Shown here: piece after piece, positions 4,642 to 27,899 of the stretch
How positions within the stretch are numbered: position 1 is the first letter of the stretch
Layout of the letters: each line of letters opens with the position of its first letter
Source of the DNA: a virus
Reading direction: 5' to 3' (one strand)
Virus record (IMG/VR): IMGVR_UViG_3300024054_000050
Span: 1-27,899 of that record
Length of the DNA: 27,899 nucleotides
Notes under the pieces: model-generated
Database searches by the model: none
What the model was told of the DNA's origin: nothing
What the model saw: only the letters and a program-made list of their open reading frames with translations
Made by a program: the position numbers and the translations under genes

Positions 4642-4688
4642 GGGGACAGTCCATGCGGTCCCGCGAAGCGGGACCTTGGACAGTCCCC
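4642..4688. repeat. Dispersed palindromic repeat E, copy 1 (long hairpin)
   Basis: An inner perfect 8-bp stem (GGTCCCGC/GCGGGACC, loop GAA) is extended by GTCCA/TGGAC and GGGGAC/GTCCCC. The same architecture and outer sequence recur at 24087-24132 inside the portal-MuF gene, and the right half alone recurs at 20343-20355. This marks a mobile or dispersed hairpin family rather than a simple terminator, although copy 1 could also terminate transcription. Confidence 0.8.
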
Positions 4689-4924: not shown

Positions 4925-7762
4925 ATGGCTCTCTCCCCAGGCCACTCACTGGACTTTGACGGGGCAACCGGCAGCGTTGTCGCCGTCACCGCCACCACCG
5001 ACGCCGACGGGCGGGGGTCGATCAGCTACGGCGGGGAGACCTTCAGCTTTCGCGCGCTGAAGGCGACGGTGGATGAGACCGAGTACCCCCTGGTGGCGAC
5101 GGCTGACCCCGTGTTCCGCGTCGGCGTCGTGCAGCAGGCCGCAGACCCCACCCTCTTCTGCATGGTCCTGGACGACGGCCCGGCCCCCTGGGGCTGGGGG
5201 CGGTCGGTGGTCGGGATCGGCGGCGCCTGGGCCGTGGCCTCCGAGTTCGCCGCCGAGGACTCCGTGGTGTTCACGATGGGCTGGGCGCCGGGGGAGATCA
5301 CGATCAAAAAGGGCGGGGTGCTGGAGGCGAGCGTGTATACCGACCTCGTGCTGACCTACGCGACGAGGGACGGGGCGCACGTCGCCTGGCGGCAGCCCGC
5401 GTACCCGAGCAAGGCGTGGGCGACTTGGGGCGCGGCACCCGGGCGCTTCCAGACAGACGTGAACGGGGTCCTGTGGGAAGTCTCCACTGGAGTTCCGCAA
5501 CCGATCATCGTACCGCGCGGGTTCGGGGCGCTCGGCTACCGCTCGGCGGTGACGGACGGCTGGACCGACTGCCCCGCGGCGGAGCGCCTGCTGACGGGCG
5601 CGGAGGTCTGGTACCTCGGGTTCCACCGGGCGGTGACGGAAGGGGCCGCGCTCGTCGTCGATACGCAGGCGACGGTCAACGTGACCGGACCGGCCAACGC
5701 CGACGTGCAGTTCTGCTGGGAGGACGGCGTCTATCGCAGCGCCGGCCTGGGGACCCTGAATGGCTCAGGAGAGGGGACGTTCACGGTCGCGCTCGGGCGC
5801 TACAGCATCCGGGTCTCGACGTCAGACCGCACGAAGGGCCTGCCGCGCTCCGCGTACCTGGACGTGATCGACCCGGGCGGGAGTTACGACGTCGACTTCG
5901 GCAGTTCGTGGACTGAGGTGGGCAGCCCCGCCGACCCCGAGGTCCAGGGGGTCATCTACCTGTACGGCTCGACGCCCGCGGCGGGACTGACCATCTACGG
6001 CACCAAGAACACCACGCCACCGTACCCGACGCCGATCACCTGGGATAACCTGGGGACGACGGGGGCGGACGGGTCCTTCGGGCCCATCGACACGACCGAT
6101 TACGTGGCTCTCGTAGTGCAAGATGGTACCTACGGGTGGGCCGGGTACTCGAAGGAGGACCCCAATCCGGAGGTCTACGGGTGGTGGGACAGCGTGATCG
6201 CCGCCTCCACCGGCGCCTGCCGGGGGGCCGGCCCTGCGGGGCTCATCGGCGCGGAGGGGGTGCTCCCCTGGGGTAACGGGGGCGCGCACAACAACCTCCA
6301 GACGCTGTTCCAGGCGGCCTACCTGGAGTGCAACGAGACGGGCGAGCCGTTCTGGCTGCACCCCACCGACAGCGAGTTCGGGCAGCACACCGACCCGCTG
6401 CGCTACCAGTACTACACCCCCTTCCCTCCGCAGTACACCAGCGATCTTGTCACGTTGACCTACGACTTCTACGACGCGGATGGAACGCTGCTGTGGGGCA
6501 ACAAGGGGCCGGGGCACAACGCGGGCTCCGCCTCCCCGCATGGTACGATGTGCATAGGACAGACGGTTTACGGGATCGTCGGCGGGAAGATCGCGGGCAA
6601 CCTGATCGAGGCCTCGCGCGGGAACCTCGTGACCGTGGACAACCTCCGCGAGGCGGCGCGCATGGGCCTGGAGACGGGCCGCTTCGCTCAGCCGCTGGAA
6701 GCGCGCGCGGACTCGGCGACGGCGGCGCCGAGCACGAAGCCCACGACGTGGACCGCCGCCGAGTGCCCGTACTGCGGAGGGCCGGCGTGGAGCGAACCGG
6801 ATGGCGGCGGTTACCTGCGGGGGTACTGCATCCCCTGCGCCGCGAACGGGTATCTCGTCGACTGCCGCACCTACTTCCTCACGCAGACCCTCTCGGCGCT
6901 CGGTGACTGGACGACGCGCTGCGTCCGGAACACGACCTCGGGCGCGCACACCGACAAGCGCATCGCCGGCTGGCCGCGCCCCGCCGAATACTACGAGACC
7001 GACGGATACCTCGTGGACCCGTGGGCGGACGGGCTGCCGCGGTGGGTGGCGGTCCACCTCGTGCTCGGGAGTCTCGCGGGCGGGACGTTCACGGACGGCG
7101 AGAGCGTCGCAGACGCCGAAACCCGCGTCGGCGACACCCTCGGACCGGTGCAGCTGAAGCTGCTGCTGACCGCTGACTACACCGGCACGGGGCGCGTGGT
7201 GACGGTGACGGCGACGAACGCCTACACCGGAGCCGCCGACGCGCTGACCGCCCGCGTGCCGGCGGGGGCCAGGGCGGGGGACCTCGTGTTCCTGAGATGG
7301 AGCCCCCACGACGCCTACCCCGGCGCGCGGAACTGGTACACCGATGTCACCGACGCCGAGGAGGTCTCCGGCGACGGCTACCTCGCCTGCCAGATCGTCA
7401 ACGACGGCCCTTCGTGGCGGAGCTCGACCGGCTGCCTCGTGACCCGTCACGCCCACAGCCCGTGGGCCTGCGACGTTCGGTTGCGCGGCCCGCGGCCGTG
7501 GCTGGATCGGGACCCGATCGGGCGGGTGTGGCTGGTGGCCGAACGGCACGGGCGGGTCCTCTGCTGGTGGAGCAGCCATCCGGACCTGGGCTGGAGCGGC
7601 CCGTGGGCGGTGACCGATGACCAGGGATGGAGCAACCCGACCGTCGCGACCCGCGCGGACGGCTGCCCGATCGTGAGCGCGACGCGGGCGGACGGGCGGA
7701 CGGTGCTGTTCGTGACGCGGGACGACGGAGCGCATTGGGAGGCGGTGACAGGTGACGGGTGA
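4925..7762 (+). CDS. Large fibre-like structural protein, 945 aa, C-terminus probably truncated by a repeat array
   Basis: This is a long beta-rich protein. The first ~240 residues look like a lectin or concanavalin-like sandwich (MALSPGHSLDFDGATGSVVA, later ERLLTGAEVWYLGFHRAVTEG). Ig-like segments follow (~250-400). Near residues 615-650 there is a Cys pattern (CPYCGG ... GYCIPC ... DC) that could bind zinc. The last ~120 residues contain repeats of the BNR/Asp-box type, ending TRDDGAHWEAV. The frame then runs into a heptad array and stops at a TGA inside it. Asp-box sequence resumes downstream in another frame (7843-8163), so I infer that the original gene was longer. The start at 4925 has only a weak upstream GGA. 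Likely a receptor-binding or side-fibre protein; no catalytic residues are proposed. Confidence 0.7.
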   Translation: MALSPGHSLDFDGATGSVVAVTATTDADGRGSISYGGETFSFRALKATVDETEYPLVATADPVFRVGVVQQAADPTLFCMVLDDGPAPWGWGRSVVGIGGAWAVASEFAAEDSVVFTMGWAPGEITIKKGGVLEASVYTDLVLTYATRDGAHVAWRQPAYPSKAWATWGAAPGRFQTDVNGVLWEVSTGVPQPIIVPRGFGALGYRSAVTDGWTDCPAAERLLTGAEVWYLGFHRAVTEGAALVVDTQATVNVTGPANADVQFCWEDGVYRSAGLGTLNGSGEGTFTVALGRYSIRVSTSDRTKGLPRSAYLDVIDPGGSYDVDFGSSWTEVGSPADPEVQGVIYLYGSTPAAGLTIYGTKNTTPPYPTPITWDNLGTTGADGSFGPIDTTDYVALVVQDGTYGWAGYSKEDPNPEVYGWWDSVIAASTGACRGAGPAGLIGAEGVLPWGNGGAHNNLQTLFQAAYLECNETGEPFWLHPTDSEFGQHTDPLRYQYYTPFPPQYTSDLVTLTYDFYDADGTLLWGNKGPGHNAGSASPHGTMCIGQTVYGIVGGKIAGNLIEASRGNLVTVDNLREAARMGLETGRFAQPLEARADSATAAPSTKPTTWTAAECPYCGGPAWSEPDGGGYLRGYCIPCAANGYLVDCRTYFLTQTLSALGDWTTRCVRNTTSGAHTDKRIAGWPRPAEYYETDGYLVDPWADGLPRWVAVHLVLGSLAGGTFTDGESVADAETRVGDTLGPVQLKLLLTADYTGTGRVVTVTATNAYTGAADALTARVPAGARAGDLVFLRWSPHDAYPGARNWYTDVTDAEEVSGDGYLACQIVNDGPSWRSSTGCLVTRHAHSPWACDVRLRGPRPWLDRDPIGRVWLVAERHGRVLCWWSSHPDLGWSGPWAVTDDQGWSNPTVATRADGCPIVSATRADGRTVLFVTRDDGAHWEAVTGDG

Positions 7763-7838
7763 CAGGTGACAGGTGACAGGTAACAGGAACGGCGGGACCG
7801 GATGTTCCGGTCACCTGTGACCTGTGACCTGTAACCTG
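7744..7838. repeat. Inverted pair of heptanucleotide arrays around a perfect hairpin
   Basis: Six 7-base units of GGTGACA type (7744-7785) are followed by a perfect hairpin GACCGGA-TGT-TCCGGTC (7796-7812) and four 7-base units of TGACCTG type (7811-7838). The two arrays are near-complementary, differing by about one base per unit. The array creates the stop codon of the 945-residue gene and separates it from an Asp-box remnant. Confidence 0.9.
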
Positions 7839-10307: not shown

Positions 10308-10360
10308 CTTCGACGCCACCGCTGCCGGTCCCGCACATGCGGGAGTGCCGGCGCTCCCGG
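10308..10360. repeat. Dispersed palindromic repeat A, copy 1 (left direct repeat of the methyltransferase cassette)
   Basis: This 53-bp sequence is identical, base for base, to 11716-11768. It contains the hairpin TCCCGC-ACAT-GCGGGA followed by GTGCCGGCGCTCCCGG. Similarity to copy 3 (17574-17643) extends further left to about 10283. After the 53 bp, GCGGCAGGATGAG (10365-10377) also recurs at the right border (11810-11822). Confidence 0.95.
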
Positions 10361-10390
10361 CGGCGCGGCAGGATGAGGTGACTGCAGGCG

Positions 10391-11821
10391 ATGCAACCGT
10401 ACTGGACGGATGGCGAGCGGGAGGTTCGGCAGGGCGACGCCTGGGCGTTGGCGGGGCAGCTCGCGCCGACGTCCGTGGACTGCCTCGTGACCAGCCCGCC
10501 GTACTGGGGGCTTCGCGACTACGGCGTTGAGGGGCAGTGCGGCCTGGAGGCGCACCCGCAGGAGTGGCTGGAGAAGATGGTGGACCTGTTCGTGCGGCTG
10601 CGTCCGGCGCTGAAGCCCACGGCAACGCTGTGGGTGAACCTGGGGGATACCTACGGGTTCAGCGGCAAGGGCCAGGGCAAGGAGCGGTCACCCGGCTTCG
10701 ACCAGTGGAAGCAGGCCACCAACAGGGGCACCATCGGGGTTGAGGCGCCTGACTGGAACCGCATTCGAGACGGATGGGTGCGCCCGAAGCAGCTTCTGAT
10801 GCTCCCGGAGCGGTTCGCCATCACAATGCAGGACGCGGGGTTCCTGCTCCGCAACAAGGTGATCTGGGCGAAGCCTAACGCGATGCCCTCCAGTGCGCGG
10901 GACCGGCTGACCACGAAGCATGAGACGGTGTTCTTCTTCACGCTCGGGCCGAAGTACTACTTCGACCTGGAGGCGGTGAGGGTGCCATTGGCCCAGGCGT
11001 CGGTAACGCGACTGAGCCAGCCGACCTTCGATGACCAGACCGGCGGACCGAAGGACGGGATCAACCCGAACCGCTCCGCGCGCAAGGCGCTGGTGAACCT
11101 ACAGAAGCGATACCCGAACGGGCCAGGAGGGTCGCCGCTGCATCGAGGATCGCCGGATGGAGAGAGCCACGGCGGCCAGGAGCGAGAGAGCAATCCCTAT
11201 GGAGGCGCGAACCCCGGGGATTTCTGGATGATCCCGCCCGCTCCGTTCCCCGAGGCGCACTTCGCGACGTTCCCGCCGCAGCTCGTGGAGCGGCCCCTGA
11301 AGGCGGGCTGCCCGCGGGAGGTGTGCGTGGAGTGCGGGAAGCCGAATGTGAGGGAGGTCGTCGCCTACGGCGGGGCCATCGGACGGTCCTGGCATGGGCA
11401 CGAGTCTGATTTGCGGGTCGGCGCGGGGCAGGCTGCGTGCCTTGCAGAACGGCGGGACTCCCAGGGCCGGGCATACCGGAGAGAGACCCTCGGCTGGCGA
11501 CCTACCTGCGACTGCGAGGCGCCCTTCGTGCCGGGCCTGGTGCTCGACCCGTTCCTGGGTAGCGGCACGACGCTCTGTGTCGCGAAGGAGCTGGGCCTGC
11601 GCGGGATCGGCTTCGAGCTGAACCCGACGTACTGCGCGATGGCCGCCCGGCGGATCGCGGACTGGCGGAGGCCGAAGGCGATGGTCACCGCCGAAGCCAA
11701 CGGCCAGGCTACCCTCTTCGACGCCACCGCTGCCGGTCCCGCACATGCGGGAGTGCCGGCGCTCCCGGAGGCGGCGTGCTCAGTGTTCACTGCTGAGGTG
11801 GAGGAGGTAGCGGCAGGATGA
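10391..11821 (+). CDS. DNA methyltransferase, beta class (N4-cytosine or N6-adenine type), 476 aa
   Basis: This is an S-adenosylmethionine-dependent site-specific DNA methylase. Catalytic motif IV reads TSPPYWGLRDYG (residues 34-45) and comes before the AdoMet-binding motif LDPFLGSGTT (about 385-394). That is the beta-class order, and SPPY favours N4-cytosine, although N6-adenine enzymes can share it. A Cys cluster between the motifs (CVECGK near 311 and CDCEAP near 373) looks like a small zinc site, as in many phage-encoded methylases. The last ~40 residues, including AGPAHAGVPALPEA, are encoded by repeat A copy 2 and a heptad array and are probably not part of the ancestral enzyme. No restriction endonuclease is adjacent, so it is a solitary methylase, possibly protecting phage DNA. 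The stop overlaps the next ATG. Confidence 0.9.
   Translation: MQPYWTDGEREVRQGDAWALAGQLAPTSVDCLVTSPPYWGLRDYGVEGQCGLEAHPQEWLEKMVDLFVRLRPALKPTATLWVNLGDTYGFSGKGQGKERSPGFDQWKQATNRGTIGVEAPDWNRIRDGWVRPKQLLMLPERFAITMQDAGFLLRNKVIWAKPNAMPSSARDRLTTKHETVFFFTLGPKYYFDLEAVRVPLAQASVTRLSQPTFDDQTGGPKDGINPNRSARKALVNLQKRYPNGPGGSPLHRGSPDGESHGGQERESNPYGGANPGDFWMIPPAPFPEAHFATFPPQLVERPLKAGCPREVCVECGKPNVREVVAYGGAIGRSWHGHESDLRVGAGQAACLAERRDSQGRAYRRETLGWRPTCDCEAPFVPGLVLDPFLGSGTTLCVAKELGLRGIGFELNPTYCAMAARRIADWRRPKAMVTAEANGQATLFDATAAGPAHAGVPALPEAACSVFTAEVEEVAAG
11716..11768. repeat. Dispersed palindromic repeat A, copy 2 (right direct repeat, inside the methyltransferase 3' end)
   Basis: It is identical to 10308-10360 and read in frame as DATAAGPAHAGVPALP in the methyltransferase C-terminus. 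A 41-base insert containing 7-base-period units (about 11774-11795) separates it from GCGGCAGGATGAG, whereas copy 1 has only 4 bases there. Confidence 0.95.
11774..11800. repeat. Short heptad array of the GTGCTCA type
   Basis: Units GTGCTCA, GTGTTCA and CTGCTGA at 7-base spacing lie at the methyltransferase 3' end, in frame (encoding CSVFTAE). The same type occurs at 14264-14294 and, as its complement, at 17524-17558. Confidence 0.6.
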
Positions 11822-14319: not shown

Positions 14320-15303
14320 ATGACGGCCTCGCGCAAGCCCCCCGAACCGGAACGGGAAGAGGGACGGAACGGGTACGTGAAGGTTCCGCGGGCCGTGCTG
14401 TTTCGCACGAGCCTGTCGGCGGAGGCGCGCATCGTGTACGCGAAGCTGCTGGAACATGCCCGGGGCGGCGCCGAGTGTTGGCCGCGCCAGGACGTACTGG
14501 CCGCCGAGCTGGCGATGTCGCGGCGCAGCCTCGAGCGCCGCATCGCCGAACTCGTGAGTGCCGGGCTCGTGGAATGGGAACGCAAAGGGCGCGGACACCC
14601 GAGCGTGTATCGGCTCGCAGTGACCGTTCCCGATCTGTTTGACCCGCCAACAGTGGCGGGTCAAACGAAGCCGCGCGAGACACTTGACCCGCCAACGGTG
14701 GCGGATCAAACGAAGCCGCGCGAAGCACTTGACCCGCCAACGGTGGCGGCAGAACGACGTAGAAGTACGTCGTTACGTCTTGAGGACAGTAGAAGTTCTC
14801 CTCCTCCTCGTCGTTGTCGGTCGTCGTTGACGTTGCCGTTGCGCGACGGCGAGGAGGAAATGGCCCGCGCTTCGCGCGACACGGCGACGGACGAACTGCA
14901 ACGGCTCGGGATGGACCCACAGACTGCTCGCGACGTGGCCAGTCAGTATGACGAAGCTACCATCGCCGAGGCGTGCCGCCGCCTACGGGAACGGCGTCCA
15001 CCACCACGGCATGTGGTGGGTTGGCTGAAGCGGACCCTCAAGAGCGTGCACGTCGCGAACACCGAGTGTGCTCAGCCGACAGCCGAGGAACGCCAGGCGC
15101 AACGCACGGCCGCGCGGCTCGCGGAGCAGAAGCGGATGGATCGGGAGCGCGCGGCGGAGCTGCGGCGGACGTGGGAGAGGCTGAGCGCCGCGAAACGCCG
15201 GAGCCTGATCGCCGAGGCGCGCCGACGTATGCCGGCGCTTCAGGGGCGACCGGATGACCATCGGCTCGTGGTCGCGGCGGCCATCAACGTCCTGGGGGAG
15301 TGA
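14320..15303 (+). CDS. Replication initiator-like protein with N-terminal HTH and internal iterons, 327 aa
   Basis: ATG at 14320 follows GGGAGGGGCG. Residues ~20-105 contain a winged-helix domain of the HTH_36 type (ARIVYAKLLEHARGG, DVLAAELAMSRRSLERRIAE, then LVEWERKGRG), typical of phage and plasmid replication initiators. Residues ~105-145 are three copies of a 15-residue repeat (DPPTVAxQTKPREx) created by 45-bp DNA iterons. A lower-GC, Ser/Arg-rich linker follows. Residues ~188-250 (LQRLGMDPQTARDVASQYDE ... HVVGWLKRTLK) resemble the C-terminal domain seen in similar Rep proteins. The end is a charged helix. As in lambda O, where the origin lies inside the initiator gene, the DNA repeats probably form the origin. 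It stands first in the early block. Confidence 0.75.
   Translation: MTASRKPPEPEREEGRNGYVKVPRAVLFRTSLSAEARIVYAKLLEHARGGAECWPRQDVLAAELAMSRRSLERRIAELVSAGLVEWERKGRGHPSVYRLAVTVPDLFDPPTVAGQTKPRETLDPPTVADQTKPREALDPPTVAAERRRSTSLRLEDSRSSPPPRRCRSSLTLPLRDGEEEMARASRDTATDELQRLGMDPQTARDVASQYDEATIAEACRRLRERRPPPRHVVGWLKRTLKSVHVANTECAQPTAEERQAQRTAARLAEQKRMDRERAAELRRTWERLSAAKRRSLIAEARRRMPALQGRPDDHRLVVAAAINVLGE
14637..14774. other. Candidate replication origin: three 45-bp iterons plus an inverted repeat, inside the initiator gene
   Basis: TTGACCCGCCA starts at 14639, 14684 and 14729, exactly 45 bases apart. In the first unit it pairs with TGGCGGGTCAA as a perfect inverted repeat (13-bp arms 14637-14649 and 14654-14666). 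The second has one mismatch and the third keeps only part of the right arm. A perfect 9-bp inverted repeat AACGACGTA/TACGTCGTT (14753-14774) follows. A visibly lower-GC tract (about 14753-14840) lies next to it and could be the unwinding element. Confidence 0.7.
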
Positions 15304-17126: not shown

Positions 17127-17558
17127 GTGAAGCGGAGCGCGAAGGTCGGAGGCCGACACGCGAGCGATCCCGGCCCAACGGGATCGGGACGACCCCCGAC
17201 CTATCCCGCTCTTCGCGGTCAACAACCGAGACTCCTGCCGGGTGGAGCTGCGTCGGCTGGGGTGAGCCGATTCGCCGGGCCGAAGATTGCCACGGCCGCT
17301 CGCGCGCGGGTGGCCGAACAGGGGGAGGGCGGCCACGTGACATGCGAACGTGTTGCGCCGCTAAGAGCAGAGCGGTTGATGGGCACCTCGGAGTTCGCGC
17401 GCCGCTTGGGCGTGCATCCGAACACCGTCTATCGCTGGGTCCAGGAGGGGCGGGTGCGCCCGCTGCAGGTTGGCCGCCGATGGCGGTTCGGGCCGTCGCA
17501 GATCGCCGAGGCGTGCGGTATCGAGCACTCAGCACGGAGCACTGAGCAGCGAGCATGA
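17127..17558 (+). CDS. HTH (excisionase-type) protein with extended N-terminus, 143 aa
   Basis: GTG at 17127 follows GGGGGGAGCGAGAC. The first ~80 residues are Gly, Pro, Arg-rich and probably disordered, so a later start is possible (ATG 17379, without clear ribosome site). Residues ~85-130 hold the HTH_17 pattern: GTSEFARRLGVHPNTVYRWV, then GRVRPLQVGRRWRFGPSQIA. This is the same fold as the 68-residue protein at 13846. The C-terminal EHSARSTEQRA is encoded by a heptad array. It overlaps the next gene by ATGA, so both are probably cotranscribed. It may regulate the packaging genes or bind DNA in terminase assembly. Confidence 0.65.
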   Translation: MKRSAKVGGRHASDPGPTGSGRPPTYPALRGQQPRLLPGGAASAGVSRFAGPKIATAARARVAEQGEGGHVTCERVAPLRAERLMGTSEFARRLGVHPNTVYRWVQEGRVRPLQVGRRWRFGPSQIAEACGIEHSARSTEQRA

Positions 17559-17560
17559 GC
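17524..17560. repeat. Heptad array, AGCACTC type, within the gene end
   Basis: AGCACTC, AGCACGG, AGCACTG, AGCAGCG and AGCATGA recur every 7 bases and encode the last residues of the HTH protein. The start codon of the next gene lies in the last unit. Confidence 0.8.
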
Positions 17561-18523
17561 GGCAAGGGCAGGCGAGCGCGTCGAGACGGCGTAACGGCCT
17601 GCGACGCCACCGCTGCCGGCAAGGGTGCCGGCGCTCCCGGCGGCTGGACGTCGATCCCGCTGCCGCTCGAGCTGGGGGAGGACGCGGGCCGCCCGGCCGC
17701 GGTGGAGAACGTCGCCGCGGCCGGGCAGCTCGCCCGGAGGGACGAGGGCGAGCTGCGGGAGCGGATGCGCCGGGCGGAGGAGGAGCAGCGGCGGCAGGCG
17801 GAGCGCCGCCGCGAGATCCAACGGGCGAACCTGCAGCCCGACCAGGCGCCGGTCCGGCACGGGGTGCACGCGCGACCGGGCGCCTACATGCTGTGCGATC
17901 GGTGCCCGATCCGGGAGCAGTGCGAGGAGTACGAGCCGGGCGAACGCTGCGGGCCCGAGCAGGAGTATGTCGAGCGGCGGACCCGCGAGCTGTACGCGGT
18001 CGAGTGGATCGAGCCGCAGCTCGATGGGCCCACGGTGAAGTTCCTGGTGTGGCTGGAGGTGCGGATGGAACGGGCCGCGCGCTACATCGGGATGCGGGGC
18101 GAGATCGAGGGCGGGGCGTACCTGCCCGTCGCGAAGGACGTGCAGGGGCTGCACAACAGTTGGCTGCGGACGCTGGAGAAGCTGGGCTTGACCCCCGAGC
18201 GGCGCAAGGCCATGAGCGAGACCGGCCAGGCGGGCTTCGGCGATCTCGCGGCGGCGCTGCTGGGGATTGCACGGGAACGGGCCGGGGAGCCGGAGGGCGG
18301 GGGCGCGGAGGTGGTGGAGGCGGAGTTCACGGTGACGGGTGAGACGGGCGACGGGCTGAACGACGAGGACGCGCCGCGCACGCCGCGGCACGAAGAGGGC
18401 GCGGGTCTGGGAGACGACGCGGAACCCGCGACGGAGCCTGAAGGAGGCTGGGGAGATGAAGGGCCTGCCGACAACGAGGATCCCCTACGCGACACACGCC
18501 TGGGGGATCGCGACGGGCTGTAG
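17555..18523 (+). CDS. Candidate terminase small subunit (P27-like) with Cys cluster, 322 aa
   Basis: ATG overlaps the preceding stop (ATGA). The N-terminal DATAAGKGAGAPGG is encoded by repeat A copy 3. Residues ~60-95 are a charged coiled coil. A cluster C114, C117, C123, C132 follows (CDRCPIREQC ... C), a CX2CX5CX8C arrangement that could bind zinc or an iron-sulfur cluster. Residues ~160-220 (FLVWLEVRMERAARYIGMRG and LRTLEKLGLTPERRKAM) resemble the C-terminal part of P27-type small terminase subunits, where a Leu-Gly-Leu-(T/D)-Pro motif ends the fold. The last ~70 residues are acidic and probably disordered. Position four genes before the large terminase supports this, but the intervening genes weaken it. 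It overlaps the next gene by 68 bases. Confidence 0.5.
   Translation: MSGKGRRARRDGVTACDATAAGKGAGAPGGWTSIPLPLELGEDAGRPAAVENVAAAGQLARRDEGELRERMRRAEEEQRRQAERRREIQRANLQPDQAPVRHGVHARPGAYMLCDRCPIREQCEEYEPGERCGPEQEYVERRTRELYAVEWIEPQLDGPTVKFLVWLEVRMERAARYIGMRGEIEGGAYLPVAKDVQGLHNSWLRTLEKLGLTPERRKAMSETGQAGFGDLAAALLGIARERAGEPEGGGAEVVEAEFTVTGETGDGLNDEDAPRTPRHEEGAGLGDDAEPATEPEGGWGDEGPADNEDPLRDTRLGDRDGL
17574..17643. repeat. Dispersed repeat A, copy 3 (central hairpin missing), in frame
   Basis: It shares GAGCGCGTCGA...TAACGGCCT.CGACGCCACCGCTGCCGG with copy 1 and GTGCCGGCGCTCCCGGCGG on the right. The inner hairpin TCCCGCACATGCGGGA is replaced by a short CAAG-type spacer. Confidence 0.8.
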
Positions 18524-20126: not shown

Positions 20127-20363
20127 ATGGAACGCGGGCATTATGCGGACGCACAGTCGACCGTGCTGGCGATCGGCCATCGGTTGTTGGACACCCCCCT
20201 CGAGGACCTGATCGCGGCCCTCGATAACGGTGAGCATCGCGGGGTCTTTACCGATAAACCGGAGGAGGAGGATGTGGGCCGCAAGGTGGTGCGGGAGCTG
20301 AGCGTTGCGCTGCAGCCGGTCCGGGAGATCGCGCGGCGCGAGCTTGGACCGTCCCGGAGGTGA
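20127..20363 (+). CDS. Hypothetical small protein, 78 aa
   Basis: ATG at 20127 follows GGAGGGAGACGGA. The protein is helical: AQSTVLAIGHRLLDTPLEDL, then IAALDNGEHRGVFTDKPEEE and VVRELSVALQPVREIARREL. Its last residues LGPSRR come from a half copy of repeat E (20343-20355). The gene ends three bases before the large terminase start, so the two are probably coupled. It might be a terminase-associated or small-subunit-like protein, but no motif shows this. Confidence 0.65.
   Translation: MERGHYADAQSTVLAIGHRLLDTPLEDLIAALDNGEHRGVFTDKPEEEDVGRKVVRELSVALQPVREIARRELGPSRR
20343..20355. repeat. Right half of repeat E (copy 3)
   Basis: CTTGGACCGTCCC is identical to the right arm of repeat E copy 2 (24120-24132) and adds LGPSRR to the end of the 78-residue protein, the same peptide as in the portal-MuF linker. 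Confidence 0.6.
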
Positions 20364-20366
20364 GCG

Positions 20367-21980
20367 ATGGGCGTGAGCGAGGCGCAGATCAAGCGGTGGT
20401 CGGTGGACCCGGCGGCGTTTGCCGAGGAAGTGCTGTGGGCCGTGCGGCCCGATACCGGGCGGCTCGGGCCGCTGCAGCTCGAGCCGCAACAGAGTGCGTG
20501 GCTGCGCGCAGCGGCCGCGCGCGATGACCGCGGGCACTTTCGGCGGCGGGTGTGTGTCGCCAGCTGGCCGAAGCGCGAGGGCAAGACGATGCTCGCCGGG
20601 CTGTACGGCTGTTGGCGCGGCGTGACCATGCAGCGCCAGAACATCGGGGTGCTCGCGAACAGCGAGCGCCAGGCGCAGAGCAACGTGTTCGCCGAGCTGA
20701 GCGGGTTCTTCCGGAACTCGCCGATGCTGAAGGGCCTGGTGCCGGAGTCGGACTTCCAGACCCGGGTGCTGCGGGTGCCCGGGCTACACAACAAACTCGA
20801 GTGCTACCCCGCGAACTTCCGGACGATCCAGGGCACCGAGTTCCACGTGCTGCTGACCGACGAGCTGCACGCGGCGGAGGACCGCGGGCGGGCCTTCACG
20901 TACGCCGCCCAGCAGACCGAGAGCCGCGACGCCCAGGTCGTCATCGCGAGTCAGGCCGGCGAGAACGTGGAGGCCAATGCGCTGTGGCGCTACTACCAGG
21001 CCTGGCAGCAGGACCCGGAGGGGCACATCCTGTTCGACTATCGGCAGGATCCGGTGACCCCGTGGGCGCGGCGGCTGGCGCGACTCGCGCAGCGCGAGCT
21101 GCTGCCGGCGGAGTACGATCGCCTGTGGCGGAACTGCTGGGGGGCCCTGGGCCAGAAGCTCTTTCGCGCCGAGGACGTGGAGGCGGCGGCGCGGGACTTC
21201 GAGCCGCCGCGCTCGCGGGAGGCATGGCGGGCCCTCCAGGAGGCGCTGGGGATCGCCGGACGACCGCTGGCGTATGGCGCGGGATTGGACCGGGCCGGCG
21301 TGAGCCGCGAGGGCGACCGGACGGTGTGGACGGATGTGGTGCAGGTTGAAACGGCGACCACAGACCACAGACCACAGACCGCAGACTCGGCGGATGACGA
21401 TCCAAGTCTGAAGTCTGAGATCCGGAGTCCGGGGTCGCCGTTGATCCTGGTCGCGGACTGTGAGACGTTGCCGACCGGCAGCGAGGCCGAGGTGTTGGAC
21501 AAGGCCCGCCGCAGCCGCGCGATCTATGGCGGCGGCCCGGTGGTGATGGAGTACTACGGCTGCAGCGATCTGTACGGGAAGGTGGCGGAGGCGCGGCTCG
21601 AGCACCCGACGCCTCAGGCGCAGCAGGCGATGTTCAACCGCGCCTACCGCGCCCTGCGCGAGCGGCGGATGATCCTGCCGGCGCGGGCCGGAACCAGCCC
21701 GACTGACGGGACGCCCGGGCTGCTGAAGGCGGAGCTGCTGAACCTGGAGTATGAGATGGGCACGACGCTGCCCAGGTTCGGGACGCAGTCGGGACATGAC
21801 GACCATCCCTACAGCCTGGCCTGGGCGATGATCGCCGCGGCGGAAGCCGCGGGCAGCCCGGTGTTCGTGCAGGAGCTGGGGGCGGCCGAGAGGGCGGAGG
21901 AGCGGACGGCGGCGGAGATCCGCCGGCTGCAGCTGGCGGGCAGGAGCGAGGCCTTGTGGGGGGAGGACGGCGAGGAGTAG
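20367..21980 (+). CDS. Terminase large subunit, 537 aa, with an in-frame heptad-array insert
   Basis: This is the ATPase-nuclease that cuts and pumps DNA into the prohead. ATG at 20367 follows GAGGTGAGCG. The ATPase domain shows a Walker A variant SWPKREGKT (66-74) and Walker B VLLTDE with D165-E166. The nuclease domain has acidic residues D308 (GAGLDRAG), D364 (LILVADCE) and D478-D479 (GHDDH). Between D308 and D364, residues ~328-357 (DHRPQTADSADDD..., SLKSEIRSPGSP) are encoded by heptad arrays CCACAGA and AGTCTGA. They lie in a probable surface loop between nuclease strands, and no frameshift results. Length is normal for the family apart from this insert. It is followed by a DnaJ-type zinc protein and then the portal gene. 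Confidence 0.9.
   Translation: MGVSEAQIKRWSVDPAAFAEEVLWAVRPDTGRLGPLQLEPQQSAWLRAAAARDDRGHFRRRVCVASWPKREGKTMLAGLYGCWRGVTMQRQNIGVLANSERQAQSNVFAELSGFFRNSPMLKGLVPESDFQTRVLRVPGLHNKLECYPANFRTIQGTEFHVLLTDELHAAEDRGRAFTYAAQQTESRDAQVVIASQAGENVEANALWRYYQAWQQDPEGHILFDYRQDPVTPWARRLARLAQRELLPAEYDRLWRNCWGALGQKLFRAEDVEAAARDFEPPRSREAWRALQEALGIAGRPLAYGAGLDRAGVSREGDRTVWTDVVQVETATTDHRPQTADSADDDPSLKSEIRSPGSPLILVADCETLPTGSEAEVLDKARRSRAIYGGGPVVMEYYGCSDLYGKVAEARLEHPTPQAQQAMFNRAYRALRERRMILPARAGTSPTDGTPGLLKAELLNLEYEMGTTLPRFGTQSGHDDHPYSLAWAMIAAAEAAGSPVFVQELGAAERAEERTAAEIRRLQLAGRSEALWGEDGEE
21358..21435. repeat. Two heptad arrays inside the large terminase gene
   Basis: Units of the ACCACAG type (21358-21385) and of the AGTCTGA/AGTCCGG type (21404-21435) keep 7-base spacing and total length divisible by three as far as reading frame is preserved across the nuclease domain. 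Confidence 0.8.
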
Positions 21981-22730: not shown

Positions 22731-22800
22731 ATGTGGCACCGCCGTCCCGGCGGTGAACCGAGAGCGGCATTCACCGGCGAGACGCCGGTGCCACGAATAT
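22731..22800. repeat. Dispersed palindromic repeat B, copy 2 (double hairpin), in frame at the portal N-terminus
   Basis: CACCGCC-GTCCC-GGCGGTG (22737-22755) and CACCGGC-GAGAC-GCCGGTG (22772-22790) are two perfect 7-bp hairpins. The translation (AAFTGETPVPR) is one I recall from repeat-derived frames in several bacterial phyla. Confidence 0.75.
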
Positions 22801-24905
22801 GGTCGCGCGGAGACGCTGTGCTCAGGTGGCCCTCGTGGCTACGGCAGGCGCCCCCGCCCCCGGCTGAAGCCGGGGTGTTCTTTGGTCCCCAGCACACCGC
22901 CGTGCCGTTGGCCCCCCCGAGCAACCCCGAGGAGTGGTATCGCAGATCGACCTGGGCGCACGTCGGCGTGAAGCGCGTCGCACAATCCGTCGCCGCCATC
23001 CCCTGGATCGTGGAGGAGAAGCGGGGCGGACTGTGGCGCGAGCCGGACGACCACGCGCTCGCGCGACTGCTGGGGTATGTCAACGCGCGGGACAACCTCT
23101 ACACGCTGAAGTGGGGCACGGCCAGCTCGCTCATCCTGCGCGGCAGCGCCTACTGGCAGATGGCGGGCGGCGGCCAACCGGCGGCGCTGTTCCCCCTGCC
23201 GGCGCACCTCACCCGGCCCCAGCCGTCCGAGGGGAATGGGCAGCTGCAGGGCTTCGTGTACTTCCCGCGGGGGGAGGGCACGCGCGGCCTTGTGTACGCG
23301 GCGGACGAGGTGCTCCACTTCCGGCAGTGGGACCCGCTGGACCCCTGGTTCGGGCAGGGCGATTGCGTAGCGGCGGAGACGGAGCTGAACCAGGCATGGC
23401 AGGCGGGCAGCCTGGTGAATGCGATCCTGCGCGCCGGCGGCCTGCAAGGGATCTTCACGGCCGACCGCGCGGTGGACGACCCGGACGAGAAGCGGCTGAC
23501 CGCCTGGGCCCGCAAGCTGGCGGCGAAGTTTCGGGGCGACCGGATCACCGTCATCGGCAACAACCTGAAGTGGCAGGAAGTCGGGCAGCAGGTCAACGAG
23601 ACGATCGTGAAGGACGTGCCGGAGAGCACGCGCCGCGCGACCCTGGCGGTGTTCGGGACGCCGCCCACGATGGCGGGCATCGGCGAGCGCGCGAGCTATG
23701 CCCAGGCGCGGGTCGAAGCCAAGGTGATGTACGAGACGGTCGTGATCCCCCTGGACACGCTGCTGCTGGCCACCGTGAACGACGGGCTCGTGCGGAAGTT
23801 CGGCGACCCCTCGCGGCTGAGGGTGCGCCACAGCGTCGATCACATCTCGTGGCTGCAGGACGACCTGATGACGCGCGTGGAGGCGGCCGCGAAGTTCGTG
23901 AGCGGCCTGCTCGGCACGCCCAACGAGGCCCGGGCGCAGTTCCTCTCGCTGGCGCCGCGACCCGGCGGCGACGTGATCCTGGGGCCGATCAGCACGGTGG
24001 TCATTCAGGATGCGCGGGGGCAGGGGAACACCGTGGAGACGGTGACGGGGGGGGGTCGGGAGAACGGCAACCGACAGCTGCAACATGGGACAGTCCATGC
24101 GCTCCCGCCGGTGCGGGAGCTTGGACCGTCCCGGCGGCGGTTCGGCGCGGAGGCCAGGGTCGCCATCCACCGCGGGTACAACCGCCGGCGCGACACGCAG
24201 GCGGAGGAACTCGCGAAGCAGATCGGCGGGTGGTACGAGACGCTGGGGCAGCAGATGATCGAGCGGATCGAGGCGGACGGGGACCTCGCGCGGCGCGCGC
24301 GCGTCCGGCAGCCGCAGGTGTCGGCCCTGGTGTTCGACGTGGCCGAGGCGACGGCGGCGCTGGAGGACATCGTGGCGCCGGCGCTGGCGCAGCTGTATGC
24401 GGAGAGCGGCGCGGCCGAGCTGGAGACGGTCGGCGTCGACGTGAACTTCGACCTGGACAACCCCCGGGCGCGCGAGCTGCTGAGGGCCCGGCAGCAGGAG
24501 CTGCAGACGGTCGCCCGAGGGGCTGAGCAGCGCGTGCGGGAGAGCCTGGACGAGGGCCTGGCCCAGGGCGAGACGGTGGAGGAGCTGACGGCTCGGGTGG
24601 AGGCCTGGACGGAGGCCGGCCGCGAGGCGTATGCCGTGACCACTGCGCGGACCGAGACCGGCATTGTGATGAACGAGGCGGCCCGCGAGGCCGATCGGCA
24701 GGCGGGAGCGAGCGGGTTTGAGTGGCTGGCGATCGTGGACGACCGCACGCGCGACAGCCACGCCGAGATGGACGGCGTGACGCGCGGGATGGACGAACCG
24801 TTCGAGGTCGACGGCCACGAGTGTGACGGCCCGGGCGATCCGGCGCTGCCGCCGGAGGAGATCTGCAACTGCCGCTGCACCACGGCGGCGGTGTTCGGGT
24901 CGTGA
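22731..24905 (+). CDS. Portal protein fused to an MuF-like head morphogenesis domain, up to 724 aa
   Basis: The portal part (about residues 55-445) matches HK97-type portals: PEEWYRRSTWAHVGVKRVAQ, later EVLHFRQWDP, ELNQAWQAGSLVNAILRAGG, TRRATLAVFGTPPTMAGIGE and DDLMTRVEAAAKF. Portals form the dodecameric DNA channel and bind terminase. Residues ~475-724 look like an MuF/SPP1 gp7 minor head protein, ending AIVDDRTRDSHAEMDG and EICNCRC with the conserved Asp-x-Arg-x-x-His and final Cys motif. The two are usually separate genes. The linker (~453-470) is encoded by repeat E copy 2. The start is uncertain: a TGA lies directly upstream of 22731, no good ribosome site is seen, and the first ~55 residues are repeat-derived. 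The true start may be a GTG at 22788, 22818 or later. Confidence 0.85.
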   Translation: MWHRRPGGEPRAAFTGETPVPRIWSRGDAVLRWPSWLRQAPPPPAEAGVFFGPQHTAVPLAPPSNPEEWYRRSTWAHVGVKRVAQSVAAIPWIVEEKRGGLWREPDDHALARLLGYVNARDNLYTLKWGTASSLILRGSAYWQMAGGGQPAALFPLPAHLTRPQPSEGNGQLQGFVYFPRGEGTRGLVYAADEVLHFRQWDPLDPWFGQGDCVAAETELNQAWQAGSLVNAILRAGGLQGIFTADRAVDDPDEKRLTAWARKLAAKFRGDRITVIGNNLKWQEVGQQVNETIVKDVPESTRRATLAVFGTPPTMAGIGERASYAQARVEAKVMYETVVIPLDTLLLATVNDGLVRKFGDPSRLRVRHSVDHISWLQDDLMTRVEAAAKFVSGLLGTPNEARAQFLSLAPRPGGDVILGPISTVVIQDARGQGNTVETVTGGGRENGNRQLQHGTVHALPPVRELGPSRRRFGAEARVAIHRGYNRRRDTQAEELAKQIGGWYETLGQQMIERIEADGDLARRARVRQPQVSALVFDVAEATAALEDIVAPALAQLYAESGAAELETVGVDVNFDLDNPRARELLRARQQELQTVARGAEQRVRESLDEGLAQGETVEELTARVEAWTEAGREAYAVTTARTETGIVMNEAAREADRQAGASGFEWLAIVDDRTRDSHAEMDGVTRGMDEPFEVDGHECDGPGDPALPPEEICNCRCTTAAVFGS
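22858..22875. repeat. Palindromic repeat D hairpin
   Basis: CCCCGGCT-GA-AGCCGGGG is a perfect 8-bp hairpin, read in frame in the portal N-terminal extension. Confidence 0.7.
24087..24132. repeat. Dispersed palindromic repeat E, copy 2, in frame between portal and MuF-like domain
   Basis: Inner perfect stem GCTCCCGC/GCGGGAGC (loop CGGT) with outer GTCCA/TGGAC and GGGAC/GTCCC is the same structure as 4642-4688. The encoded linker includes HGTVHALPPVRELGPSRR. Confidence 0.85.
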
Positions 24906-24937
24906 GGGGCCATGCCGCCGCCGGAGGGAGGGACAGA

Positions 24938-26002
24938 ATGGGACGGGACCTGAGGATGCCGACCGAGGAGGAGTATCGGGCCCACGGGGCGGCGCCGTTC
25001 GCTCACATGCGCGCGACGGCGTTCACGCCGCTGGCCCTGGACGAGGCGGAGCACACGATCGACATGATGGTGAGCACCGGCCAGTGGGCGCGGGACGGGC
25101 AGCGCATTCTGCCCCAGGCCTGGCAGCGGAACCTGGGCACCTATCTGGAGAATCCGCAGGTCACTTGGGCCCATAGCTGGTGGGAGCCGGGGATCGGCCT
25201 ATGCCGCGACGCGCAGGTGCGGGACAACGGCTTGTGGGCGCGCCTGTGGTTCGACGTGGATGACGAGGAGATCGCGCGCATCTGGCAGGCCATCCGCACG
25301 ACCAGGGTGCGTTGTGCGAGCGTGAGCTGGGATGGCGAAATGGCATACACCTACCCGCGCAAGATCGGCGACAACAATGAGTTCGGTGAGTGGGTGGAGC
25401 GCGCCGACGGGAGCCTGGGGTGGGAGTGGCGCGACAACATCACCCTGATGGAGATCGCGATGGTGCCGATCCCGAGCGATACGGGCGCCAACACGACCCT
25501 GAGTCGGATGCTCGGGATCGCCTCGCCCCCTACCCACTCTCCTGAACGGCAGCTCGCGCACGAGCTGCCTGGGAGAGGGGGGACGGAGGCGGAGGTGCTG
25601 GAGTATCTCGGCCGGCTGAACGGGGCGGCCGAGTGGCTGCGGAACTGGACCCGACACGTCGCGAAAGGCGGGGGAGCCCCCTCCCCCGCAGTGATCGAGC
25701 AGGCGCTGAGCCCTCTCGGCGACCTGATCGAGATCGCGGCCGGCCGGACGGGCGAGGCCCGGGCGTTGAGCGCCGATAACCGGGCCCTGGTGGACGGAGC
25801 GGTGGAGGCCTTGCAGCGATTGGCGGGGAGAGGCGAGGAGGAGGGACGGGCGTTCACGGCTGCCACCCCGGCCGGTCCCGCACATGCGGGAGTGCCCGGC
25901 GCTCCCGGTGGCGACCACGGGCAGACCCTCGATGGGTTGCTCGCCAACATCGAAGAGCAGCGCGCGGAGGCCGCTCTGCGCGCGGTAGGGATGAGATCAT
26001 GA
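24938..26002 (+). CDS. HK97-type prohead protease, 354 aa, with repeat-derived C-terminal extension
   Basis: ATG at 24938 follows GGAGGGA; the frame overlaps the portal stop at 24902 but that start is weaker. Residues ~20-190 carry the protease domain: a substrate-binding strand region (LDEAEHTIDMMVSTGQWARD), the catalytic-His region VTWAHSWWEPG (H79), a Ser motif RCASVSWDGEM (S128, with S130 as alternative) and ITLMEIAMVPIPSDTGANTT, the conserved end of the family. The protease cleaves scaffold and capsid N-termini. The region after residue 195 holds three palindromic repeats in frame, separated by helical segments (EVLEYLGRLNGAAEWLRNW). The total is longer than the usual ~200 residues. The stop overlaps the capsid start by ATGA. 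Confidence 0.85.
   Translation: MGRDLRMPTEEEYRAHGAAPFAHMRATAFTPLALDEAEHTIDMMVSTGQWARDGQRILPQAWQRNLGTYLENPQVTWAHSWWEPGIGLCRDAQVRDNGLWARLWFDVDDEEIARIWQAIRTTRVRCASVSWDGEMAYTYPRKIGDNNEFGEWVERADGSLGWEWRDNITLMEIAMVPIPSDTGANTTLSRMLGIASPPTHSPERQLAHELPGRGGTEAEVLEYLGRLNGAAEWLRNWTRHVAKGGGAPSPAVIEQALSPLGDLIEIAAGRTGEARALSADNRALVDGAVEALQRLAGRGEEEGRAFTAATPAGPAHAGVPGAPGGDHGQTLDGLLANIEEQRAEAALRAVGMRS
25537..25577. repeat. Palindromic repeat in the protease gene (in frame)
   Basis: Perfect inner stem GGCAGCTCG-CGCA-CGAGCTGCC (25548-25569) with outer CTCTCC/GGAGAG (25537-25542 and 25572-25577). Encoded as part of PERQLAHELPGRGG. Confidence 0.8.
25668..25689. repeat. Palindromic hairpin in the protease gene (in frame)
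   Basis: Perfect 9-bp stem GCGGGGGAG-CCCC-CTCCCCCGC, encoding GGGAPSPA. Confidence 0.8.
25862..25908. repeat. Dispersed palindromic repeat A, copy 4, in the protease gene (in frame)
   Basis: GGTCCCGCACATGCGGGAGTGC is shared with copies 1 and 2. One extra C then changes the frame of the last part (CCCGGCGCTCCCGG), giving AGPAHAGVPGAPGG. Confidence 0.85.
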
Positions 26003-27429
26003 ACGAGACACCGACGGCGGTGCAGGCGTTTCGGCGGGAGCTGGTGGGGGGGCTGGAGGATCCCGGGGTCAGGAACGCCCTGATGGGCTGGTACCAGGCG
26101 ATGGATGACAACGCCCGGCGCGAGTGGATGCGCCAGGCGTTGGAGCACGAGTTCGACGAGAAGCTGCTGCCCAAGATCGAGGCCCTGGTTCAGGAGCGGG
26201 CGGCGCGCCAGCTGGCGGAGGCGCAGTACGTGCCGCCGGACCGCCGGGCGCTGCGCTACATGGAGCAGCCGCTGAGCGAGCGGCAGCTGAAGTATCCGGC
26301 GGACGGCGACGAGCTGATCCTCCGGCAGCAGCAGCTGCACGACGATCTATACTTCCTGAGCGAGCTGAGCCCGCGCGGGATCCGCGCGAACGTCATCCGG
26401 CGCTACCTGGAGTGGATCGACGCGCCGGATCACATCCGCGCAGCCCTCACCTCCACCACGTCCGGCGCCGCGAGCCAGTGGGTGCCGACGATCCTGAGCG
26501 CGGACTTCTACACGCTCATTCAGGGGCAGCTCGCCGTCGCGGCGCTGTTCCCCGAGTTCGAGATGGTCGGGGGCACGGTGGACGTGCCCACCGCCCTGAC
26601 CCGCACGCGGCCCTACCTGAAGACGGAGGGGTCAGCGGTCACCGAGGACAGCACGCTCGCCTCCGGCAAGGTGACCTTCGCCGCCAAGACGCTGGGCGCG
26701 TTCCGGGACTTCACCCGGGAGCTGGACGAGGACTCGATGCTGACGATCCTCCCGCTCCTGCGGGACGCCCTGGGCGGGTCGATCGCGTACGGCATCGACC
26801 TGGTGATGCTGGACGGGGACACCACCGCCACCCACATGGACACCGACATCGAGGCCCTGGGGGCGAGCGACTGCCGGACGGCGTGGATCGGGCTGCGGAA
26901 GAAGGCGCTGACCAACACCGGCGCCAACGCGGACCTCTCGACCTGGAACCTGGACGCCTTCAACGCGATCCCGGCCGCGATGGGGAAGTACGCGAACCCG
27001 AGCGAGCTGGCGATCATCGTGGGCAACAAGGTCTTCTGGAAGCACCTGCCCACGACGATCGACAACTCCACGAACAAGAACAGCGTGTTCCTCCCCGGCA
27101 CGTTCGGCGGCAGCATGGGCCCGGTCGTCAACGGGTTCACGGGCATCCGCCTGATGGGCGCGCCGATCGTCTACGCGCCGCTGCTGCGCGAGGACGTGGA
27201 CGCCACCGGCGTCAACGGCGCCTCGGGCAACACCTACACCTACCTGGTCGTGGTGAACGTCCGCGCCTGGCGCCGGGGCACCCGGCGCGAGGTGACGGTG
27301 CAGTACGCGGACAGCGATGCGGCCTCGATCAAGGCGGGCACGGCGACGGTGGCGGCGAGCTGGCGCGGGACGGCCATGCACATGGAGGGGTCGGGCCTGA
27401 CGACCGCGATCGGCTACAAGATGAGCTGA
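25999..27429 (+). CDS. Major capsid protein (HK97-type fold) with N-terminal scaffold-like region, 476 aa
   Basis: ATG overlaps the protease stop (ATGA). Residues 1-~145 are helical and charged (FRRELVGG, DEKLLPKIEALVQERAARQL), as in the scaffolding delta domain removed by the prohead protease. From ~150 the HK97-like capsid begins: SQWVPTILSADFYTLIQGQL, VAALFPEFEMVGGTVDVP, KTEGSAVTEDSTLASGKVTF, AKTLGAFRDFTRELDEDSM, then a long domain with LAIIVGNKVFWKHLP, GFTGIRLMGAPIVYAPLLRE and the C-terminal VVVNVRAWRRGTRREVTVQY. The order protease-capsid is standard for this group. No transmembrane or enzyme motif is present. Confidence 0.9.
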   Translation: MNETPTAVQAFRRELVGGLEDPGVRNALMGWYQAMDDNARREWMRQALEHEFDEKLLPKIEALVQERAARQLAEAQYVPPDRRALRYMEQPLSERQLKYPADGDELILRQQQLHDDLYFLSELSPRGIRANVIRRYLEWIDAPDHIRAALTSTTSGAASQWVPTILSADFYTLIQGQLAVAALFPEFEMVGGTVDVPTALTRTRPYLKTEGSAVTEDSTLASGKVTFAAKTLGAFRDFTRELDEDSMLTILPLLRDALGGSIAYGIDLVMLDGDTTATHMDTDIEALGASDCRTAWIGLRKKALTNTGANADLSTWNLDAFNAIPAAMGKYANPSELAIIVGNKVFWKHLPTTIDNSTNKNSVFLPGTFGGSMGPVVNGFTGIRLMGAPIVYAPLLREDVDATGVNGASGNTYTYLVVVNVRAWRRGTRREVTVQYADSDAASIKAGTATVAASWRGTAMHMEGSGLTTAIGYKMS

Positions 27430-27435
27430 GGGACC

Positions 27436-27524
27436 GTCTGGTCTTGGGTCTCGCGTCTCTGGATTGACGGCATGGCCGGAACGCGGGGCCCAAGACCTCA
27501 GACCAGAGACCCCAGACTGGAGCG
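27436..27524. repeat. Inverted pair of heptad arrays after the capsid gene
   Basis: Units TCTTGGG, TCTCGCG, TCTCTGG (27442-27462, preceded by a partial unit) face an array CCAAGAC, CTCAGAC, CAGAGAC, CCCAGAC (about 27490-27518) after a ~26-base spacer. Both keep 7-base spacing and are roughly inverted, as at 7744-7838. Confidence 0.8.
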
Positions 27525-27532
27525 AAGCGACG

Positions 27533-27899
27533 ATGGCAGCCACGAGCAACCTGACGTTCTTCGTGAGCGGGAACCTCGGCCACGACGCGGGGGTAGGGTC
27601 GGACGGCTGCCTGATCGGCGCCCTGACGGCCACCGACCCCGATGACGGCCTGCTGAAGTCCGCGGCGCTTGATCCGCTGTGCCTCGCGGAGGACAAGAGC
27701 GGCGACACCTACACCAGCTACACCACGCAGATCGCGGAGGCCACGGCGGATGACGTGACCTGCCTGCCGGCGACGCCCGCGGTGAACGATGCGCTGTATC
27801 TCGGCCACGCCACGCTGCAGTTCAAGCAGGCCGATCTGCAGATCACCACCCAGGGCGTCGGCACGTGGACCATCACGTGGGAGTACAGCAAGAACGACG
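27533..27899 (+). CDS. Phage structural protein, N-terminal part (3' end outside window)
   Basis: ATG at 27533 opens a frame that runs off the window after 122 codons. The ribosome site is weak because the heptad array lies just upstream. The product starts MAATSNLTFFVSGNLGHDAG, is acidic, rich in Ala, Thr and Asp, and ends with beta strands (ALYLGHATLQFKQADLQITT, WTITWEYSKN). Position after the capsid suggests a head decoration, head-tail joining or tail protein. I do not recognise a family. Confidence 0.65.
   Translation, partial: MAATSNLTFFVSGNLGHDAGVGSDGCLIGALTATDPDDGLLKSAALDPLCLAEDKSGDTYTSYTTQIAEATADDVTCLPATPAVNDALYLGHATLQFKQADLQITTQGVGTWTITWEYSKND

Follow-up and report, generated by a model that had tools for sequence, protein, structure and literature searches.

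Palindromes of a bacterial, dispersed type were found in a stretch of viral DNA of 27,899 nt (IMG/VR record IMGVR_UViG_3300024054_000050; the whole stretch is hereafter called the window). The original prediction was partly supported by sequence comparison. Its core holds: such host-type palindromes add in-frame residues to a head gene of the phage, at a linker of low conservation. Two families, repeat E and repeat A, were traced to metagenome-assembled genomes (MAGs) of Armatimonadota, and E was found there beside tyrosine transposase genes (RAYTs).

Repeats E and A in the phage window

The positions of the repeats and of the genes that carry or neighbor them are collected in Table 1. Among the full viral copies, only E copy 2 is clearly internal to a gene. 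Its hairpin (GGGACAGTCCATGCG...CTTGGACCGTCCC, 24087-24132) codes approximately residues 453-468 of ORF 22731-24905, in agreement with the original prediction that E lies between the portal and MuF-like parts of this protein: the Pfam matches Phage_portal (residues 80-402) and Phage_Mu_F (residues 600-718) stand on either side, and the left and right flanks of the copy are both coding in one frame. In the portal relatives, the linkers at the E site were unconserved and mostly shorter, which is consistent with E being an insertion. An empty E site was seen in no close relative, and the linkers differ in length in any case. Searches of IMG/VR with the portal and TerL retrieved only a near-identical contig, and the portal also three relatives at 22-24%. 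Structure prediction of the portal from a six-row alignment gave a mean pLDDT of 32, and no structural claim is therefore made.

Table 1. Repeats and associated genes in the window.
Feature	Position	Strand	Evidence
Repeat E copy 1, intergenic	4643..4687	+	host-trained covariance model, 61.4 bits, E=8e-15
Repeat A copy 1, intergenic, just upstream of methylase	10315..10360	+	host-trained model, E=6e-5
DNA methylase gene	10391..11821	+	PF01555
Repeat A copy 2, methylase C-terminal tail	11723..11768	+	host-trained model, E=9e-5
Candidate small terminase gene	17555..18523	+	homologue directly upstream of TerL in G032
Repeat A copy 3, near N-terminus of ORF 17555	17606..17640	+	host-trained model, E=5e-11
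E 3' arm only, at end of 78-residue ORF (20127-20363)	20343..20355	+	CTTGGACNGTCCC match
Terminase large subunit (TerL) gene	20367..21980	+	phrog_9
TerL word-repeat insertion, ~25 residues, not an E/A palindrome	21348..21425	+	absent from G003 and G032 TerL
Portal/MuF fusion gene	22731..24905	+	PF04860 + PF04233; phrog_2662
Third palindrome, family P, portal ORF 5' end	22733..22795	+	78-79% match to several G002 places
Repeat E copy 2 (GCAACA + hairpin 24087-24132)	24080..24132	+	host-trained covariance model, 50.1 bits, E=1e-11
Residue string across E insert of portal/MuF protein, HGTVHALPPVRELGPSR			
Protease-position gene, upstream of capsid gene	24902..26002	+	position; 30% identity to same-place gene in L125
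Repeat A copy 4, C-terminal tail of protease-position gene	25862..25908	+	host-trained model, E=4e-5

The motif GGGGACAG is present in the host E consensus and in viral E copy 1, and E copy 2 has TGGGACAG instead. The palindrome is imperfect, and 9 of the 19 pairs of its inner stem are changed on both sides, that is, compensated. The portal ORF has the palindrome of family P at its 5' end, and the 3' arm of this palindrome occurs five times in the MAG G002; the palindrome may form a leader if GTG 22818 is the portal start, alternative starts being present.

Copy 3 of repeat A has the short form that is also the host form, whereas the inner stem is longer in viral copies 1, 2 and 4. Over 58 nt, copy 1 matches copy 2 at 98% identity, and it has 46 nt of extra flank in common with copy 3 (91%), which indicates that A was copied within the virus too. 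At 10308-11773, direct A repeats of near-identical sequence stand before the methylase gene and at its 3' end, an arrangement that resembles a cassette and could be removed by recombination.

The original prediction described the palindromes as in-frame insertions into essential head genes. This description fits E copy 2 and is too strong in general, since one copy of each repeat (A copy 1, E copy 1) falls between genes and the remaining A copies are found at gene ends. The related copies said to add residues to the methylase and to the candidate small terminase were both recovered as repeat A: copy 2 falls in the methylase C-terminal tail, beyond the conserved domain, and the 17606-17640 hairpin precedes the part, beginning at about residue 92, that ORF 17555 shares with the gene beside TerL in G032. 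This neighborhood supports the assignment of ORF 17555 as a candidate small terminase by position only. Of the three palindromes read as insertions in the protease tail, A copy 4 lies in the C-terminal tail, beyond the part (residues 65-310) over which the G007 relative aligns, whereas the middle one (approximately 25669-25689) codes VAKGGGAPS where the relative has WAKEGGGPS and is thus no insertion. Residues conserved in relatives lacking the hairpin were accordingly seen at this middle palindrome and not at E or A. The protease-position gene had no Pfam match, and tblastn found no phage relatives of it. The related copy ascribed to the 78-residue protein proved to be a half-arm only, which has 18 identical nt in common with the 3' arm of the second E copy. 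In comparison with relatives, the clearest repeat-coded insertion is that of TerL, where approximately 25 in-frame residues are built of ACAGACC and AAGTCTG words; the TerL relatives in G003 (50% identity) and G032 (45%) are without them, and the words gave weak matches to host DNA (best E ~0.002).

Other repeats were observed elsewhere in the window. At 14637-14750, inside a gene with an HTH_36 domain, a 45-bp unit that contains a palindrome (TTTGACCCGCCA..TGGCGGGTCAAA) is directly repeated three times; these repeats look like origin iterons within an initiator gene. At 7744-7838, inverted blocks of GGTGACAGG-type words stand between two genes, and the same words occur at several places of the MAG G001.

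Host families and transposases in Armatimonadota

The host genome search with the hairpins, as originally suggested, located both families in Armatimonadota MAGs. A gapped (strict) E pattern was scanned over 84,980 species genomes, and 36 of the 37 loci fell in two Armatimonadota MAGs; the remaining match, in Methylophilus, is probably due to chance. With the strict pattern, 36 copies were counted in G001 and 5 in G002, and none in the other 289 Armatimonadota genomes searched (2 of 291 positive). Covariance models for E and A were built from the MAG copies alone and then run on the virus, where they detected E at 8e-15 and 1e-11 and A at 5e-11 to 9e-5, confirming E and A as real families. The exact host species is, judging from the lower scores of the viral copies compared with the MAG copies, absent from the genome collections searched.

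A gapped pattern of the A core yielded 12 copies in G001, all of the short form of viral copy 3. The exact core had given no match in the genome contigs because the host copies carry a different loop. Repeat A is a second dispersed palindrome family of one MAG (G001). Within the window, the 13-mers abundant in G001 are confined to E, A and GC stretches of low complexity. Host A elements were also seen in head-to-tail arrays with a 43-bp period (L122:4274-4456 and L107:15456-15638), and E copies repeat at a spacing of 156 bp in L028.

The neighborhood of the host copies connected E with transposases. At G001:C18, a RAYT gene is flanked on either side by E copies, which are inverted relative to each other, and its neighbors were read by eye as a hisA-like and a hisF-like gene; at G002:C94, a RAYT 69% identical to it has E just upstream, on one side; and at G001:C8 another RAYT is surrounded by a divergent E subfamily. 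The best NCBIfam match of the RAYTs was REP_Tyr_transpos, slightly under the cut-off, and GGGGACAG of E fits the GGGGWSAS motif of TIRYT repeats. Genes with PF01797 are common in the order to which the MAGs belong, and none was found in the viral record, so that viral E probably derives from the action of a host RAYT in trans. The model of A (R2) had no match at ten RAYT loci of G001, and A is classed only as a dispersed palindrome.

Origin and retention of the viral copies

We consider it probable that E is a host REP/TIR element which, together with A and P, was received by the phage DNA, that gene-breaking copies were lost and that the in-frame E was tolerated. On the host side, E is a short REP/TIR-type palindrome native to an Armatimonadota lineage and tied there to a tyrosine transposase (RAYT/TIRYT); the phage host would be a member of that lineage. 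The phage DNA would have acquired copies of E, A and P, those of E presumably through the host transposase acting in trans on phage DNA and followed by selection. Copies breaking genes would have been lost. Those that remain lie between genes, at gene ends or, in the case of E at 24087, within the portal/MuF linker without a break of frame, where approximately 17 extra residues would be tolerated and presumably neutral.

The frame of the surviving copy is in keeping with this scenario. Both E and A are nearly stop-free across all six frames, and the lengths of E are spread over all three remainders modulo 3. Given such open elements and the loss of frame-breaking copies, no special frame-keeping mechanism is needed, and an in-frame survivor is to be expected after selection. 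Avoidance of genes was strong in the host, where about 2 of 72 E copies and 1 of 31 A copies lie in frame, against ~59% at random; the E counts are approximate because the 72 copies were collected with a relaxed pattern from loci that overlap in part, duplicates were removed by their context, and coding was judged by a simple codon score. The proportions of strictly internal copies (1/6 in the virus, 3/103 in the host) did not differ significantly (p=0.2). The rare in-frame host copies, namely an A copy that separates two activase-like repeats in an ORF of 1434 residues (domains read by eye) and an E copy in a 488-residue ORF, resemble the phage case.

Recombination with host DNA, in which a fragment was picked up and then copied within the phage with no transposase acting on phage DNA, is a possible origin that we hold to be unlikely. 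It would account for repeat A, whose copies 1 and 2 at either end of the methylase and copies 1 and 3 with their common flank have the similarity described above, and beside which no transposase was found. E fits it poorly, as E flanks transposases and the viral copies share only the element and a short 5' flank with the sampled MAG contigs.

That the hairpins are kept for a function in the phage, as RNA structures tuning head-gene expression or as useful protein linkers, seems very unlikely. All six full viral copies of E and A point along the direction of transcription, and the hairpins are stable as RNA, as such a function would have it; the sites, however, have nothing in common (intergenic positions, ends of genes, a linker), relatives do not conserve the inserted residues, and the frames are open by composition.

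An assembly chimera or a decayed prophage, in which the in-frame insert would not be in a working gene, is highly improbable even though the window is a metagenomic contig and no isolate is available. Another contig of IMG/VR (L004, L008, L009) shows no difference from the window between 8781 and ~26600, carries the same E and A copies, and runs 7.5 kb beyond the end of the window. L009 and the window differ only at 26613-27772, by 25 substitutions and one indel. All 10 strain differences inside the capsid gene are at third codon positions, so that the head genes, whose ORFs are open, look under selection. The stretch 26613-27772 itself looks like local recombination between strains. The window begins (1-1193) inside a tape-measure-like gene, and what reads like the start of such a gene stands at the end of L009. 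The genome is thus probably permuted, and its length would hardly exceed that of both contigs together.

Chance palindromes of a 70% GC genome are of practically negligible probability as an explanation: generic perfect stems of at least 10 nt showed no clear excess in the window (5, versus 0-4 and 3-6 after shuffling in two different ways), which suits at least the middle protease palindrome, but the best E and A copies match host families at 1e-11 or better, and chance is excluded for both.

Related elements and implications

The original prediction likened the palindromes to those of Rickettsia. The likeness holds insofar as the Rickettsia elements are also palindromes coding in-frame residues in conserved proteins, but they are 105-146 bp long and found in Rickettsia only (PMC2229807), whereas the present elements are ~45-55 bp long and occur in Armatimonadota, with a transposase link for E. 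As E flanks RAYTs in two Armatimonadota MAGs, REP/TIR repeats with a tyrosine transposase are the better analogue. The TIR repeats of TIRYT transposases (TIRtrons; TnpA-REP/RAYT family) are likewise inverted, self-complementary repeats around a Y1 transposase, have the GGGGWSAS motif and form a moderately abundant dispersed family, as E does (PMC3733652; PMC6006769); E differs in having copies in a phage as well, of which one lies in the reading frame of a head gene. REPs have already been described in frame within bacterial ORFs, where they fall in linkers or at the ends of proteins (PMC3733652), and these copies, of GTAG REPs, were read as tolerated rather than useful; E and A are without the GTAG tag, and the gene concerned here is a phage gene, not a chromosomal one. 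A small non-autonomous element in a phage genome has also been described in wDam-MITE-1 of the Wolbachia WO prophage, which is, however, a 217-bp MITE with a 9-nt target duplication and is thought to be gene-disrupting (PMC5447182), unlike the in-frame coding E. In the literature searched, which was mostly without subscription journals, no report of REP elements or transposase-linked palindromes in phage virion (head) genes was found.

A more general proposal would be that transposase-linked host palindromes regularly enter phages as protein linkers and recombination joints, with E having lengthened the portal/MuF junction and paired A copies framing the gain or loss of a methylase cassette; we regard it as quite unlikely.

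How REP elements spread is still an open question (PMC8266576). Since a phage is a replicon from outside, the E and A copies in phage genes are evidence of passage between replicons. The repeats also link a phage that has not been cultivated with a lineage of bacteria, and they show that a portal gene may tolerate such inserts. These results suggest that repeats can pass from bacteria to viruses and that essential genes can tolerate them.
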